NCBI RefSeq assembly: GCF_022009635.1
Contig: NZ_CP091716.1
Location: 186,001 to 250,000, forward strand
Origin: Variovorax paradoxus
Lineage (GTDB): Bacteria; Pseudomonadota; Gammaproteobacteria; Burkholderiales; Burkholderiaceae_C
Direction of reading: 5' to 3'
Length of the DNA stretch: 64,000 bases
Both the position numbers and the translations under genes were made by a program. Below, piece by piece: positions 2,683-56,509 of this stretch (position 1 is the stretch's first letter; each line of letters starts with the position of its first letter). The notes beneath the pieces are model-generated. The model was not told the DNA's origin. It saw nothing but the letters and a program-made list of their open reading frames with translations, and searched no databases.

Positions 2683-4308
2683 ATGGACACCATCACCCCG
2701 ACAGCACTGCAAGCCCTGCTCCTGGCAGAGCCCGCGACAGAACTCTCGCTGCTCGACGTGCGCGAGACCCGCTATTTCGTGCAGCGCCATCCCAACCTCG
2801 CGCGCAACGTGCCCTTCAGCGGACTCGAGCTGCAGATAGAAGCACTGGTGCCGCGCCGCACCACGCCGGTCGTGCTCTACGACGACCACGACGCATCCGA
2901 TGGCGTGGCCCAGGCCGCCGCAATCGTGCTCAACCGGCTGGGCTACACCGACGTGCGCACCCTCAACGGCGGCCTGCAGCGTTGGCTAGGCGAGGGCCTG
3001 CCCGCCATCGACGGCTACGGCACCCTGGTCAAGGCCTTCGGCGACCGCGCCCGGCTGCACTACGGCACACCGGGCCTGCCCATCGAGGCTTTGCGGGAAC
3101 GCCAGCGCGAAGGCCGGCCGACCACGCTCGTCGACGCGCGGCCGCATGCCGAGTTCAGGTTCCTCTCGCTGCCCGGCGCTCGCAACCATGCCGGCACCGA
3201 ACTGGCCCTGCGCCGCTTCGAGGCGGACGAGGCCGACCACCTCTGGGCCATCAACTGCTTCAGCCGCACGCGCGGCATCGTCGGCGCGACCACGCTGCGG
3301 TTGCTGGGCCGTGCGCCCGACGCGGTGTTCTTGGAAGACGGCGTCATGGCCTGGGGCCTGCAAGGCGCGCCGACCGTGCAGAACGCCGCGCCCGACGATG
3401 AACTGCCGCCCGAATCGCCCGAAGTGCTGCGCCGGATTGCCGACGACCTGATCGGGCGCTTCGGGCTGCCCCTGGTGGATGCCGCCCAACTGGCCCGCTG
3501 GCGCGACGACGATGCGCGCACCCTCTACGTCTTCGACGTGCGTCCCGCCGCCGATCCGGCCTTGTCGGGCACCGACGTGCGCCAGGTACCCGGCGGCCAG
3601 TTGCTGATGCATTTCGAGAACCTCGTCGGCACGCGCGGCGCGCGCATCGTGCTGCTCGACGACCAGGCCCACCGGCTGCGCGCCGCCATCACGAGCTTCT
3701 GGCTCACCCAGCTCAACCAGGCCGAGGTCTACATCCTGGACGGCGAACTGGCGCCCGACCAGGCACCGCCCGCGCCCGGCACGACGGTCAGGGACGCCCC
3801 GGTTCCGATCGCCGCCGATGCCCTGGCCCGGCTGCGTAGCGACGGCGTCGTCACCGTGATCGACGTCGGCCCCAGCCTCGACTACGAACGCGGCCACCTG
3901 CCGGGCGCGCTCTACATGCTGCCGGCCTCGCTCGCGCCACTCGCCGAGCATGCCGCCCCCGGCCGCACGCTGGTCTTCACCTCGCCCGACGGCGTGGCCG
4001 CGGCCCGCGTGGCGCGCGACGCGCGCCAGCGCTGGCAGGAGGATTCGGGGGCGGTATTCACCTGGCTCCAGGGCGGAACACAGGGCTGGGGGGCTTCGGG
4101 ACGGCCGCTTTCGACCGATTACGTGCCGCCCCAGCTCCTTACCCCCTTCGACGACGACTGGGGTTCGGTGATGCGCGTCTTCGGTCCGCGCCGCGATGCG
4201 GCCTGGGCCGACTATCTCGCGTGGGAGCGCGCGCTGGCCGAACGGGTCCTGCAGGACCCGTCCGTGCGTTTTCGCTTCTTTGCGCTCAGCGCGCGGGCGC
4301 CGGCGTAG
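2683..4308 (+). CDS. Four-module rhodanese-like sulfurtransferase
   Basis: A 541-residue protein built from four rhodanese-like modules (about 1-110, 125-235, 260-360 and 375-505). Only module 2 shows a usual active-site loop with catalytic cysteine, C192 in NCFSRTRG. The equivalent loops in modules 1, 3 and 4 carry Asp or Ser/Pro in place of Cys (YDDHD, LDDQA, FTSPDG), so they are probably structural or regulatory. The family moves sulfane sulfur from thiosulfate or persulfides to thiol acceptors. The start MDTITP is chosen because it directly follows the structured element at 2591. The gene overlaps minE tail to tail by 23 nt. Confidence 0.85.
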
Positions 4309-4564
4309 GGTCGGGCAGCTCGATCTTGATGTCGAGCACTTCGAGGTTGTCCTGGGTCTCCAGGTGCACCTTGATGTCTTCCGCGTTGATCGACACGTAC
4401 TTGGAAATCACCGCCACCAGCTCGCGCTGGAGTTCGGGCAGATAGTCGGGCCGCTTCTTGCCGCTGAGGCTGGACCGCTCGTGCGCGAGGATGATCTGCA
4501 GCCGCTCCTTCGCGACGCTGGCAGTCTTCTTCTTTTCGCCCAGCAGGAACGAGAGAAAGGACAT
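4286..4564 (-). CDS. minE: Cell division topological specificity factor MinE
   Basis: A 92-residue MinE, close to the family length of about 88. The N-terminal amphipathic membrane-targeting helix [10 protein letters not shown] is followed by the MinD-binding segment with [12 protein letters not shown], then the beta-rich dimerisation domain. MinE stimulates the MinD ATPase and drives pole-to-pole oscillation, which keeps the division inhibitor MinC away from midcell. It is the last gene of minC-minD-minE and begins 3 nt after minD ends, consistent with co-translation. Confidence 0.97.
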
Positions 4565-52236: not shown

Positions 52237-53364
52237 TCAGGAATCGGCCAGCTTCTGCTTGCGGAATTCGGTGGGCGTGAGACCGGTCGCGGCCTTGAAT
52301 GCGCGGTTGAACGGGCCGATCGACTGGAAGCCCGCGGTCAGGGCGATGGTCAGCACAGGCAGTTCGCGCTTCGAGGAATCGGCCAGCGCCGCCATCGCCT
52401 CGGCCAGCCGGAAGCCGTTGACGAAGGCGTTGAAGTTGCGGTGGCCGAGCCGCTGGTTGATGAGGCGGCGCAGGCGGTATTCCGGCGCCGAGAGCAGCGA
52501 GGCGAGGGTGGCGATGCTGAGGTCTTCGCGGCGGTAGGCATGTTCGACGGCCATCGCGTGCTGCAGGGATTGGGCGAGGCGGTCTTCGGCGGAATCGGGT
52601 GCGAGTTCGGGTTCGGCGGGTTCCTCGACCGGAAGCGGCGAGGCCGGCCTGTCCGGCATCACGGCCGGGATCACTGCCGGCGCTCGCGCGACCGGGAACA
52701 GGTCCGACCTCGTCAGGCGCAGCATCCGCCATGCCACTACCGCGACGATCAGCAGCATGATCACCACGTCCGCCGTCGCCGACGAATCCGAGAGCTGCCC
52801 GCGCGGCGACGCGAGCCGCACAGCGAGCATCCCGACGCTGTAGCCGACGCCCGCGACCACGATGAACATGCGCAACCGCCGCCGCCCTTCCACTAGGTCG
52901 GCCCGCCATCGGGTCGCCGCCGCCAGCGCGGCCAGCACCGCGAACACCAGCGGCACCGCGCGTTGCAGGCCCGTCGTCACCGGCGCGAGCACCGACGCGC
53001 TGCCCGCCACCACCGCGCAGTTGAGCGCCGCCAACGCCGCCGCCGCGAGCCATGCCGCGACATGCAATGGCCGCAATTCGAAGTCGTCGTCGAACAGCGC
53101 CTGCGCGAACACCCAGAACAGCACCGCGTTGCCCACCGACACCGCCACGAAGGGCGACTGCCAAAGCCGCGGCACGCTCGCCTCGAACATCGGCGTCGAG
53201 CCGATGACCTGCACGCACAGCCCCAGCGCGAGCAGCACGCCCACGCGCGCGACCGGCAGGCGCGGACGGTCACGGCCGAAGACCAGCGCGAGCACGAGCA
53301 GCAGGGCCAGCAGCACGCCGCGCAGGGCGGCGTCGAGCAGGGGTGTTGTGGGAACGGGGGGCAC
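52237..53364 (-). CDS. Membrane-anchored AraC-family regulator
   Basis: A 375-residue protein with about six to seven N-terminal hydrophobic segments (10-230), then an acidic linker and a C-terminal AraC-type DNA-binding domain (about 275-372). The latter shows EDLSIATLASLLSAPEYRLRRLINQRLGHRNFNAFVNGF and ALTAGFQSIGPFNRAFKAATGLTPTEFRKQK. This is the architecture of membrane-integral AraC regulators that sense an envelope or periplasmic signal. It borders the AT-rich retron island. Confidence 0.87.
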   Translation of the reverse strand: MPPVPTTPLLDAALRGVLLALLLVLALVFGRDRPRLPVARVGVLLALGLCVQVIGSTPMFEASVPRLWQSPFVAVSVGNAVLFWVFAQALFDDDFELRPLHVAAWLAAAALAALNCAVVAGSASVLAPVTTGLQRAVPLVFAVLAALAAATRWRADLVEGRRRLRMFIVVAGVGYSVGMLAVRLASPRGQLSDSSATADVVIMLLIVAVVAWRMLRLTRSDLFPVARAPAVIPAVMPDRPASPLPVEEPAEPELAPDSAEDRLAQSLQHAMAVEHAYRREDLSIATLASLLSAPEYRLRRLINQRLGHRNFNAFVNGFRLAEAMAALADSSKRELPVLTIALTAGFQSIGPFNRAFKAATGLTPTEFRKQKLADS

Positions 53365-53415
53365 GATCGGCAGACGGCGAGCGCAATGAGCGTCGACGAT
53401 AGCAGGAAGACATGG

Positions 53416-54369
53416 CTATACGCCTTGCGGGCCATCTATGTGATCTGTAGACGCCGTGAGTTTCATTGAGGCTCTTAATGCTCGTAGCTGCCTTACTTGC
53501 AGTTGAAATCTGTCTTCCACTTGTGCATAGGCGGCAGCTTTGCTAAGCAAAGTCTCGGCGACCTTCAAAGTGGTGCACGCGCTTGGCTTCTTCAAGGTTC
53601 GTATGGCATCCCATAACTCTCGATCGCGATAAGGTGGCACAGCTATTCGGTCACCGATGATCTGTACACCTGTCACTAGCTTCGGGTTGTTTGGCGCATA
53701 CAGGCGAGCCCTGTGATATTCGAAGCCGTGACGGTGGACGATTTTCTTCACCTCCCATAGAAAGCCGGCCGTTGCTCGCGTCCCCGACCACGTTAGATCG
53801 TCAACGTAATAAGTATCCTTGATGCTGTATTCGAGGGCGCGGGCGTGAAGCTCATCAAACATCGGTTTGGCCGAGAAGAACGCGAGAAGTTGACTCACGC
53901 GACTGCCAATGGCGAGATGGCCGCGTGCGGTGCAAAGCTTTGCGAGAAGGCTTGCAACATCGGGACTGCATCTCATGACATCTTGGAAGAATCTGTAAAC
54001 GCGTGCAGAAGAAACCGCCGCATAAAACTTCTTGATATCGAGCTTGATCAGCCAAACAGCTCCGGCGTGGACTTGCGCATTCGTGATGTAAGAACGCTGC
54101 TTGCGCCCTGAGTGCAGATAGTCTGGCTTTTCGATCCGATCCAGCAACTGATAGATCCTGCGTTGGACGTTCTCCAGCGCTGGTTTGGGCACTTCCAAGG
54201 ATCGCTCCTTGTTGGCATGCATCGTTTTCTTGGAGCGATAGTTGTCAGTCCGATTGGCCAATGCTTGCAATCGAGACAAATCCCAAAAAAGCAGCTTTGC
54301 CAGCTTGCGCTTGCTCTCAAGTTTGTAGAGCGGGCTCTGGTCCAGTTGATAGCCTTTTGCCGTAGACAT
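53416..54369 (-). CDS. Retron-type reverse transcriptase
   Basis: A 317-residue reverse transcriptase. Catalytic aspartates are D111 in IKLDIKKFY and D190/D191 in the YVDD box. Both retron-specific motifs are present: NAxxH as NAQVH at 97-101 and VTG at 232-234. The segment that is usually LPxGxPxS reads LAIGSRVS (152-159), a departure at three conserved positions. The start MSTAKGY follows AGGTGG; earlier codons give unrelated residues. Base composition is clearly AT-richer than both neighbours, and no maturase or integrase domain is present. No separate effector gene is visible. Confidence 0.87.
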   Translation of the reverse strand: MSTAKGYQLDQSPLYKLESKRKLAKLLFWDLSRLQALANRTDNYRSKKTMHANKERSLEVPKPALENVQRRIYQLLDRIEKPDYLHSGRKQRSYITNAQVHAGAVWLIKLDIKKFYAAVSSARVYRFFQDVMRCSPDVASLLAKLCTARGHLAIGSRVSQLLAFFSAKPMFDELHARALEYSIKDTYYVDDLTWSGTRATAGFLWEVKKIVHRHGFEYHRARLYAPNNPKLVTGVQIIGDRIAVPPYRDRELWDAIRTLKKPSACTTLKVAETLLSKAAAYAQVEDRFQLQVRQLRALRASMKLTASTDHIDGPQGV

Positions 54370-54845
54370 GTCCACCTGACCTGTACAGAGAGCGCGACGC
54401 GCTAACACAGCCAAGCACCGCATGGTTTGTTGTCCATGCGTCGAGTGCACGGATCAGAGGTCATCCGTAGCAAACTCCCGATATCAAGAAGCGCACAGAT
54501 GAGTCTGATTACCCAAATGACGCATTGAACTATCGGGAAGCTCATACGCTTCCGTGATGCCCGCTGGCGACTTGGGCGCCTATGCTTTTTCTTTGCCACT
54601 TCATGGCTCCTTTCTCAAAGCGGACCTCGCGACATGCGAGGCCTCTCGTCAGCCCTGAGAAAGTGGGAGAGCGCCAGCAGTTTTTACCTCTGGGCCGCCA
54701 GTGTCGCTTCAGACTCGTATGAAGCGTGCTGCCTAGGCACGACAAGCTCACAAGGCTGGCTCTTCTTGAAAGAGAGATCCAAGTAAGCGCGGCGTGCCCA
54801 GCAGATGTCAGAAATCTTTCGATTTCCACGAGCCACGTTTCCATG
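54370..54845 (-). ncRNA. Candidate retron msr-msd leader, boundaries unresolved
   Basis: The untranslated region upstream of the reverse transcriptase is rich in inverted repeats: 54419-54425/54434-54440 (CGCATGG), 54449-54454/54463-54468 (ACGGAT), 54476-54483/54531-54538 (TCCCGATA), 54536-54541/54548-54553 (GGAAGC), 54610-54617/54656-54663 (CTTTCTCA) enclosing a CCTCGC/GCGAGG stem, and 54811-54826 (GAAATC with a GAAA loop). Retron template RNAs lie directly upstream of the enzyme gene, so this is the expected place. I could not assign the a1/a2 arms or the branching G with confidence. Confidence 0.5.
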
Positions 54846-54997
54846 ACTCCGTTTTTGACTTAACACCCTTTAGCCCAAGCGATTGGAAATCTACATGTAC
54901 TTGGTGCGCCATACAAGAGGGATTTCCGTAGCAGATCGCCATCCAAAGCCCCGCTTCTTCAAAGGTCTGGAAGATCGTTTTCGGACGTTTTTTGTTT
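54846..54997. other. AT-richer intergenic sequence, no gene seen
   Basis: Between the retron leader and the Rrf2 operator there is no open frame with a plausible ribosome-binding site. It probably holds the minus-strand promoter of the retron and the plus-strand promoter of the Rrf2 gene, but clear -35/-10 pairs could not be assigned. Confidence 0.4.
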
Positions 54998-55018
54998 ATG
55001 CAACTAATAATGTTGCAT
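54998..55018. promoter_or_regulatory. Palindromic operator over the Rrf2 start codon
   Basis: ATGCAAC-TAATAAT-GTTGCAT is a perfect 7-bp inverted repeat with a 7-nt AT-rich centre. It overlaps the start codon of the Rrf2 gene (55017). The centre TAATAAT itself resembles a -10 box. Confidence 0.7.
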
Positions 55019-55478
55019 GAAACGAGACAGCAAGCTTTCAGGCGTTCTCCACGTGCTGCTGCACATGGCCGAGATGGAGGGGCCGGTCACCTCCGAGTTG
55101 CTCGCGGTCGCGATGCATACCAACCCGGTCGTCATCCGTCGCCTCATGGCGGGCCTTCGGCAGGCGGGGTTCGTGAGTTCGGCCAAGGGCCACGGCGGCG
55201 GATGGGTGCTGTCGTGCTCGCTCTCGGCGGTCACGCTGGGCGACGTGCACAACGCCGTCGGTGCCCCCGCGCTGCTGGCCATGGGCAACCGCACCGAAAG
55301 CCCGGGCTGCATCGTCGAGCAGGCGGTGAATGCCGCGCTCGACGGCGTGTGCGAGGAGGCCGAGGCGCTGCTGCTCAGACGTTTCAACAGCATCACGCTG
55401 GCCGATCTTTCCAGGGACTTTCACCGCCGCATGACGGGCGGCGGCTTCACTTCAAAGGACATTGAACATGCGCTATGA
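55017..55478 (+). CDS. Rrf2-family transcriptional regulator
   Basis: A 153-residue Rrf2 protein. The winged HTH spans about 5-65 ([46 protein letters not shown]), with the wing in [13 protein letters not shown]. It has a single Cys (in SPGCIVEQ) in the region where Fe-S-binding members carry three cysteines, so it is unlikely to hold a cluster. No Shine-Dalgarno precedes the ATG, and the palindrome 54998-55018 covers it. It overlaps the downstream oxidoreductase by 11 nt, which is its probable target. Confidence 0.88.
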
Positions 55479-56433: not shown

Positions 56434-56509
56434 GCGGGAATAGCTCAGTTGGTAGAGCGCAACCTTGCCAAGGTTGAGGTCGAGAGTTCGAGACTCTTTT
56501 CCCGCTCCA
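56434..56509 (+). tRNA. tRNA-Gly (anticodon GCC)
   Basis: A 76-nt cloverleaf with acceptor GCGGGAA/TTCCCGC, D-loop AGCTCAGTTGGTAGAGC, anticodon arm AACCTTGCCAAGGTT with anticodon GCC, T-arm GAGAGTTCGAGACTC and an encoded 3' CCA. The T-loop reads TTCGAGA. It reads GGC/GGU codons. Immediately followed by a terminator. Confidence 0.98.

Follow-up and report, generated by a model that had tools for sequence, protein, structure and literature searches.

The 64,000-nt stretch of the Variovorax paradoxus genome analyzed here (RefSeq assembly GCF_022009635.1, contig NZ_CP091716.1, positions 186,001–250,000 of the forward strand; hereafter, the window) carries, between an AraC and an Rrf2 gene, a chromosomal retron of the type VI branch that lacks the helix-turn-helix (HTH) protein gene present in most of its relatives. 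We consider it reasonably probable that this retron serves in abortive infection through a membrane-active peptide effector, restrained by the leader RNA and/or by the complex of the reverse transcriptase (RT) with multicopy single-stranded DNA (msDNA). The observations behind this reading are the grouping of the RT with type VI retron RTs, the conservation of a small peptide gene, a leader RNA with covarying base pairs, a Shine-Dalgarno (SD) sequence lying partly within a conserved hairpin, the absence of both the HTH gene and its associated palindrome, and an empty site in other Variovorax genomes. A previous, sequence-only reading had proposed a retron with apparently no separate effector gene; the retron call stands, and the remark on the effector does not, because a small open reading frame (ORF) between the RT gene and the leader, the proposed effector gene, had been overlooked. 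The features of the element are as follows.

53416–54369, minus strand: reverse transcriptase, 317 aa, ATG at 54369; NAQVH at residues 97–101, YVDD at 188–191, VTG at 232–234
54402–54599, minus strand: small ORF, proposed effector peptide, 65 aa, GTG start; N-terminus basic (KKKHRRPSRQRASRKR) and followed by a hydrophobic helix, PIVQCVIWVIRLICALL
54607–54612, minus strand: SD sequence AAGGAG of the small ORF, partly inside the 3′ foot of stem-loop (SL) 5
54600–54876, minus strand: full conserved leader RNA, proposed to comprise msr-msd and the SD hairpin, starting near GGGCTAAAG; exact ends putative
54830–54849, minus strand: SL1, GAGTCATG-GAAA-CGTGGCTC, msr-type hairpin, stem of 8 bp showing compensatory changes
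54810–54827, minus strand: SL2, 7-bp stem, GAAA loop, msr-type hairpin
54729–54804, minus strand: SL3, long imperfect hairpin, candidate msd
54705–54726, minus strand: SL4, stem with ACGAG loop, apparently the counterpart of the GC-rich hairpin with an ACGAC/ACGAG loop in relatives
54610–54663, minus strand: SL5, CTTTCTCAGGGC/GCTTTGAGAAAG hairpin with apical CCTCGC/GCGAGG stem, the foot covering part of the SD

A reverse transcriptase of the type VI retron branch

The RT carries the NAxxH, YxDD, and VTG motifs expected of a retron enzyme, of which NAxxH and VTG are those that tie RTs to retrons. All three had been noticed before at the positions listed above, and N97, A98, H101, Y188–D191, and V232–G234 are invariant in an alignment (A1) of the window RT with 17 homologs (18 sequences). 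The homologs favor the ATG at 54369 as the start codon; a longer, 344-aa frame is possible from a GTG at 54450. The best PADLOC profile is RT_VI (8.5e-80; runner-up, 8.5e-40), and the 14 best structural matches of the RT model (predicted local distance difference test score 84.8) are all retron RTs. In a maximum-likelihood tree of 70 RTs, midpoint-rooted for drawing only, the window RT falls, alongside PADLOC type VI retron RTs, within a branch of 42 rows (support 100/99), which is the outcome that the phylogenetic check proposed with the sequence-only reading called for. Members of this branch are found on chromosomes and plasmids and in P2-like and Mu-like phages. By these comparisons the window RT belongs to the type VI retron branch. 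That the enzyme might instead derive from a diversity-generating retroelement or a group II intron is very improbable from protein comparisons: as previously stated, no maturase or integrase domain is found in it by Pfam, which gives RVT_1 alone (E 3.3e-5, 24.1 bits, below the cutoff of 29.6), retron RTs lead its PADLOC, NCBIfam, and PDB sequence matches, and the branch mate L038 has an HTH_VI partner. The eukaryote dataset eukprot lists a protein, P0016, that matches about half of the window RT at full identity and is perhaps a bacterial contaminant.

A small basic and hydrophobic peptide encoded ahead of the reverse transcriptase

Type VI retrons combine an RT with a DNA-binding protein and a small auxiliary protein (as classified by Mestre et al. 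2020, cited in excerpts of PMC8541194), and a small auxiliary protein gene upstream of the RT, as in these retrons, is present in the window. The helix of the encoded peptide has a mean Kyte-Doolittle hydropathy of 2.25 over 17 residues (z 3.7 versus shuffles). The metagenome protein P0121, the sole match in one search, is 80% identical to the peptide; in another metagenome protein, P0007, a window-type peptide is in frame with the RT, the two forming one 385-aa frame; both proteins share the first part of the window peptide and the start of its tail. The peptides of loci L001 and L002 are 56% identical to that of the window, the DNA of which, at the peptide tail, appears by eye to be one base shorter than in L001. 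No match to the window peptide was obtained among plasmids (tblastn).

In diverged relatives, the peptide sequence has changed, yet its position, SD, basic N-terminus, and hydrophobic stretch recur. By a rule drawn up from the first examples, a like ORF is present at the same place in 35 of 39 branch loci, compared with 0.9 expected from 60 shuffles per locus, and in all seven loci that lack the HTH gene. This count covers 39 of 48 loci. L052, L053, and L062 fall outside the branch, the RT start region of L051 is unrecognizable, and L005, L039, L050, L070, and L080 are near-copies; all of these were set aside. The four failures are L003, L038, and L061, where a peptide is present by eye, and L004, where the frame is seemingly broken. 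A net charge of at least +3 precedes the most hydrophobic stretch in each of the 34 peptides scored (from 41 loci, leaving out L002, L003, L004, L038, L050, L070, and L074). Across 45 codons, the window and L001 peptide genes differ at 16, 13, and 20 sites by codon position, a pattern that alone is no argument for selection at the protein level; that argument draws on the position, SD, charge, and helix seen from locus to locus. The build of the window peptide fits that of a membrane-active toxin, and it may act as the effector at the membrane.

Absence of the HTH gene and of an associated palindrome

An HTH gene accompanies 35 of the 42 branch rows and, where annotation was seen, overlaps or abuts the RT start; the sole HTH protein scanned, that of L038, matches PADLOC HTH_VI (1.1e-33). 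The seven loci of the branch without it are those of the window, L001, L002, L040, L041, L042, and L009, where four HTH_VI-type protein queries found no HTH near the RT (best E in the window, 1.3); in the genome of the window as a whole, there were just two HTH matches, both weak and distant (E 2.5e-4 and 4.2e-4). Because the HTH was sought and not found, the element, on sequence grounds, is an HTH-less variant of the type VI branch that falls short of the canonical type VI gene set. Presence of the HTH changes three times on the RT tree, as forced by well-supported branches, and none of 500 shuffles gave so low a number; most simply, the gene would have been lost three times.

The palindrome TTCGCTnnnAGCGAA occurs exactly in 18 of the 80 fetched loci, all 18 HTH-bearing. 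In the 15 loci measured, it lies 288–364 bases upstream of the peptide start, that is, close to where the leader begins. With up to two mismatches, it is found in 27 of 31 non-redundant HTH-bearing loci and in none of the seven HTH-less ones (Fisher p 2.6e-5, relatedness ignored). The corresponding raw count is 31 of 40 HTH-bearing rows versus none of eight others (the seven HTH-less loci and L051); the HTH-bearing rows then lost L052, L053, and L062 together with the five near-copies and L047, whose upstream region is short, and gained L078, with an exact copy farther upstream. This tracking of HTH presence suggests that TTCGCTnnnAGCGAA is a candidate binding site of the HTH protein itself, decaying once the gene is lost. 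Because separate lineages without HTH and palindrome retain peptide, leader, and RT, the comparison indicates that the HTH, a putative repressor, is probably a dispensable transcriptional layer.

Alternatively, the window could hold a decayed type VI retron, with an RT that is still open in an inactive system. The missing HTH, the window peptide tail unlike that of L001, and the seemingly broken peptide frame of L004 and L039 are in line with such decay. We find it quite unlikely, given that the RT is open with all key residues, that P0121 and P0007 share the first part and the tail start of the window peptide, and that HTH-less forms occur in diverged lineages. In L004 and L039, it is the frame upstream of the HTH that appears broken in comparison with L038; HTH and RT are still open. 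Outside the type VI branch, L052, L053, and L062 have an upstream ORF resembling the HTH of L038 (E 3e-12 to 1.3e-10) and perhaps represent a sister design; L052 and L062 also have a 77-aa ORF with a hydrophobic C-terminus.

A conserved and covarying leader RNA

Inverted repeats upstream of the RT had been remarked upon from sequence, and they exceed chance, as the segment 54597–54880 folds into five main stem-loops at −119.2 kcal/mol, compared with −96.8 (standard deviation 4.9) for 200 dinucleotide shuffles, none of which is as low (z −4.6). Along the leader, two short hairpins, most of them with loops of the GAAA type, come first; a long imperfect hairpin follows, then one with an ACGAC/ACGAG loop, and finally one whose 3′ foot extends into the SD of the peptide. 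We aligned, separately, the leaders of the window and six relatives (three of them HTH-bearing) and those of eight HTH-bearing relatives. Changes on both sides of a pair affect 12 of 28 pairs in the former set and 21 of 43 in the latter, with 0 of 500 shuffles as high in either; slid controls gave 2–5 and 4–8, respectively. A covariance model of SL5 (R2), trained on seven HTH-bearing loci, matches the window at the expected place, 54602–54691 (E 4e-5 in 801 bases, filters off; next match, 0.008), and, in a search of 48 sources with default filters, also the HTH-less loci L042 (E 0.0079) and L040 (0.048). Finally, the SD is paired with a mean probability of 0.78 in 41 loci, versus 0.57 when the upstream part is shuffled, and exceeds its own shuffled mean in 37 of them.

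The leader is thus a conserved structured RNA on the same strand as the RT gene and just upstream. Of the folding and covariance check suggested earlier, the part on a conserved, covarying RNA held; the a1/a2 arms came out as short candidate pairings only (GGGTG/CTCCC in the alignment, GGUGU/ACACU in the fold), with no single solution across loci. The predicted a1/a2 pairs differed between groups and are not claimed here. The SL5 motif GACGAGAGG was considered as the msr start and dropped, because SL1 and SL2 lie upstream of it and are conserved. By eye, the SL4 loop and the 5′ side of SL5 share like short motifs, as if bound by one protein: ACGAG in the group of the window, ACGAC in the other, and GGCGA in L054, with further cases in L048, L038, L042, and L046.

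A model of peptide restraint and its alternatives

In the mechanism that we propose, a single promoter would drive a transcript made up of the leader RNA (msr-type SL1 and SL2, the msd candidate SL3, SL4, and the SD hairpin SL5), a cationic membrane-type peptide of ~50–65 aa, and the RT. While the cell is at rest, the enzyme would bind the leader and produce msDNA, and the peptide would be left untranslated or sequestered through the structured leader, in which SL5 covers the SD, and/or through the RT-msDNA complex. A phage that disturbs RT, msDNA, or leader would then release the peptide to the inner membrane and bring growth to a stop, that is, abortive infection. In most relatives, transcriptional control would be added by the HTH protein, with TTCGCTnnnAGCGAA, close to the start of the leader, as its probable target; the window lineage does without this control. 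Other retrons are described as restraining a toxic effector by RT, RNA, and RT-DNA until phage interference (excerpts of PMC12548924; passages on types II-A and III-A), and, by analogy, the peptide is the natural effector candidate. Control of the peptide would most likely be seated in the leader, where the SD hairpin and the RT complex share one RNA. A bolder generalization, which we offer tentatively and rate below even chances, is that type VI-branch retrons are leader-gated peptide toxins, with the RT-RNA or RT-msDNA complex as an RNA-level antitoxin that holds the SD hairpin; phage damage to reverse transcription would switch translation on, and the HTH would be merely a dispensable transcriptional layer.

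Alternatively, the peptide effector could be controlled at the protein level, its basic half attached to msDNA or leader RNA within the RT complex until phage damage to the msDNA frees it, so that the SD hairpin sets the dose only. The basic stretch that precedes the hydrophobic one in all 34 scored peptides would suit this arrangement, as would the sequestration of a toxic effector in the RT-RNA-DNA complex of other retrons (excerpts of PMC12548924); conservation of SL5 itself, with covariation in its stems, speaks against it, and we rate it as less likely than not. It is unlikely that the peptide instead serves as a cofactor tethering the RT-msDNA particle to a nucleic acid or to the membrane, with the true effector elsewhere in the genome. 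Its gene lies beside that of the RT, and the fused frame of P0007 would agree with such a partnership, but retrons usually have their effector within the locus, and no other shared neighbor was seen in the annotated loci, though no systematic comparison was made.

Several results weigh against an abortive-infection retron with a leader-restrained peptide. The window peptide past about residue 45 cannot be aligned with that of L001 and differs from those of both L001 and L002, so that the tail is not conserved; the peptide rule was formulated after the first examples had been seen; hydrophobic clustering passes z 1.65 in no more than 18 of the 34 scored peptides, that of L009 being weak; and PADLOC has no model matching P0121 or two other peptides, the window's own not having been scanned. 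Two losses and one regain of the HTH fit the tree equally well. RT_VI is also the top PADLOC profile for L010 and L062, outside the branch. As to the leader, its structures were predicted from the same alignments, which favors the pair counts, and for further pair types, one of the five measures used, the observed value is reached by 12 and 6 of the 500 shuffles. In the 48-source search with default filters, the window leader is matched by neither R2 nor R1 (the model of the msr hairpins), and R2 has no match at the expected place in L001, L002, L003, L004, L038, and L041; within the window, R1 recovers the SL2 fragment alone (54811–54826, 7.7 bits) and not the whole leader. No candidate for the a1/a2 arms and branching G is consistent across the aligned or folded leaders. 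SD pairing reaches the 5% level in 13 of 41 loci and fails to exceed its own shuffled mean in four, and the window value, 0.70 versus 0.52, is reached by 18% of shuffles and is not significant.

Relation to known systems

A phage element of the branch type is described as a type VI retron with genes for a DNA-binding protein and small auxiliary proteins, one of which has a predicted transmembrane segment (excerpts of PMC8541194). The window resembles type VI retrons in its RT branch, its small basic/hydrophobic peptide ORF, and the structured leader ahead of that ORF, and differs in lacking the HTH gene and palindrome, its peptide ORF standing directly before the RT. Type IV retrons (Ec48) have transmembrane effectors and are thus comparable in placing a membrane effector, in our case a proposed one, beside a retron RT; the window effector would differ as a single-helix peptide of 65 aa translated from the leader transcript, and the RT branch is another. 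Hok and TisB are membrane peptides of type I toxin-antitoxin systems. TimP/TimR is a further type I membrane peptide system (excerpts of PMC7667032). The likeness would lie in a small hydrophobic peptide with its translation start predicted to fall inside an RNA structure, whereas the window has a retron-type RT and leader. In a literature to which subscription papers contributed little, we found no experimental study of a type VI retron, and prior work may exist; excerpts of PMC8541194 and PMC13249269 mention such a retron from sequence. From the comparison, the type VI group gains a model of its leader RNA together with candidates for the effector and for the HTH binding site, and the naturally HTH-less loci point to the part that is dispensable. 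If the reading is correct, a 65-residue peptide effector encoded on the leader transcript would link retrons to small membrane-toxin systems.

Genomic locus and empty site

As had been noted, the retron is bordered by an AraC gene (52237–53364, minus strand) and an Rrf2 gene (55017–55478, plus strand), and its base composition is unlike that of its flanks, with a GC content of 0.52–0.56 across 53500–55249 (500-base windows) versus 0.62–0.72 in the flanks shown.

53365–55016, no strand: AraC–Rrf2 start-to-start segment, 1652 bp; 93–138 bp in 13 retron-less Variovorax loci

The comparison with related strains suggested earlier did reveal an empty site. Of 101 genomes of the genus searched for Rrf2, 56 gave a match (E ≤ 1e-40); among 30 loci fetched, 13 have AraC beside Rrf2 at the short spacing and no RT, three (the window and two relatives) have the RT, and in 14 Rrf2 has no AraC neighbor. 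Between the window and L001, which share the site, identity is 91.5% for Rrf2, 82.7% for AraC, and 60.2% for the RT, which points either to rapid evolution of the retron or to its exchange at this site. An Rfam scan of the window gave, at gathering scores, only a tRNA (56434–56506), and a permissive search added one chance match. Among the viral contigs searched, four stretches fit a pattern and none was a relative.

The genome of the window has a second retron-type RT, L008 (G000:C1:4704553-4705221), with RT_XIII as its best PADLOC profile (6.2e-180). In L051, the RT match does not begin until residue 54, with the nearest HTH-like stretch >1.2 kb upstream, as if the RT start had been interrupted by an insertion. 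On a Microvirga plasmid (L056), a complete small ORF-HTH-RT set is followed by a TIR-domain gene (3477–4436), possibly a second effector, and the plasmid retrons of L057, L080, L068, and L070 adjoin toxin-antitoxin genes (Hok/Gef family, MazF, RelE/ParD).
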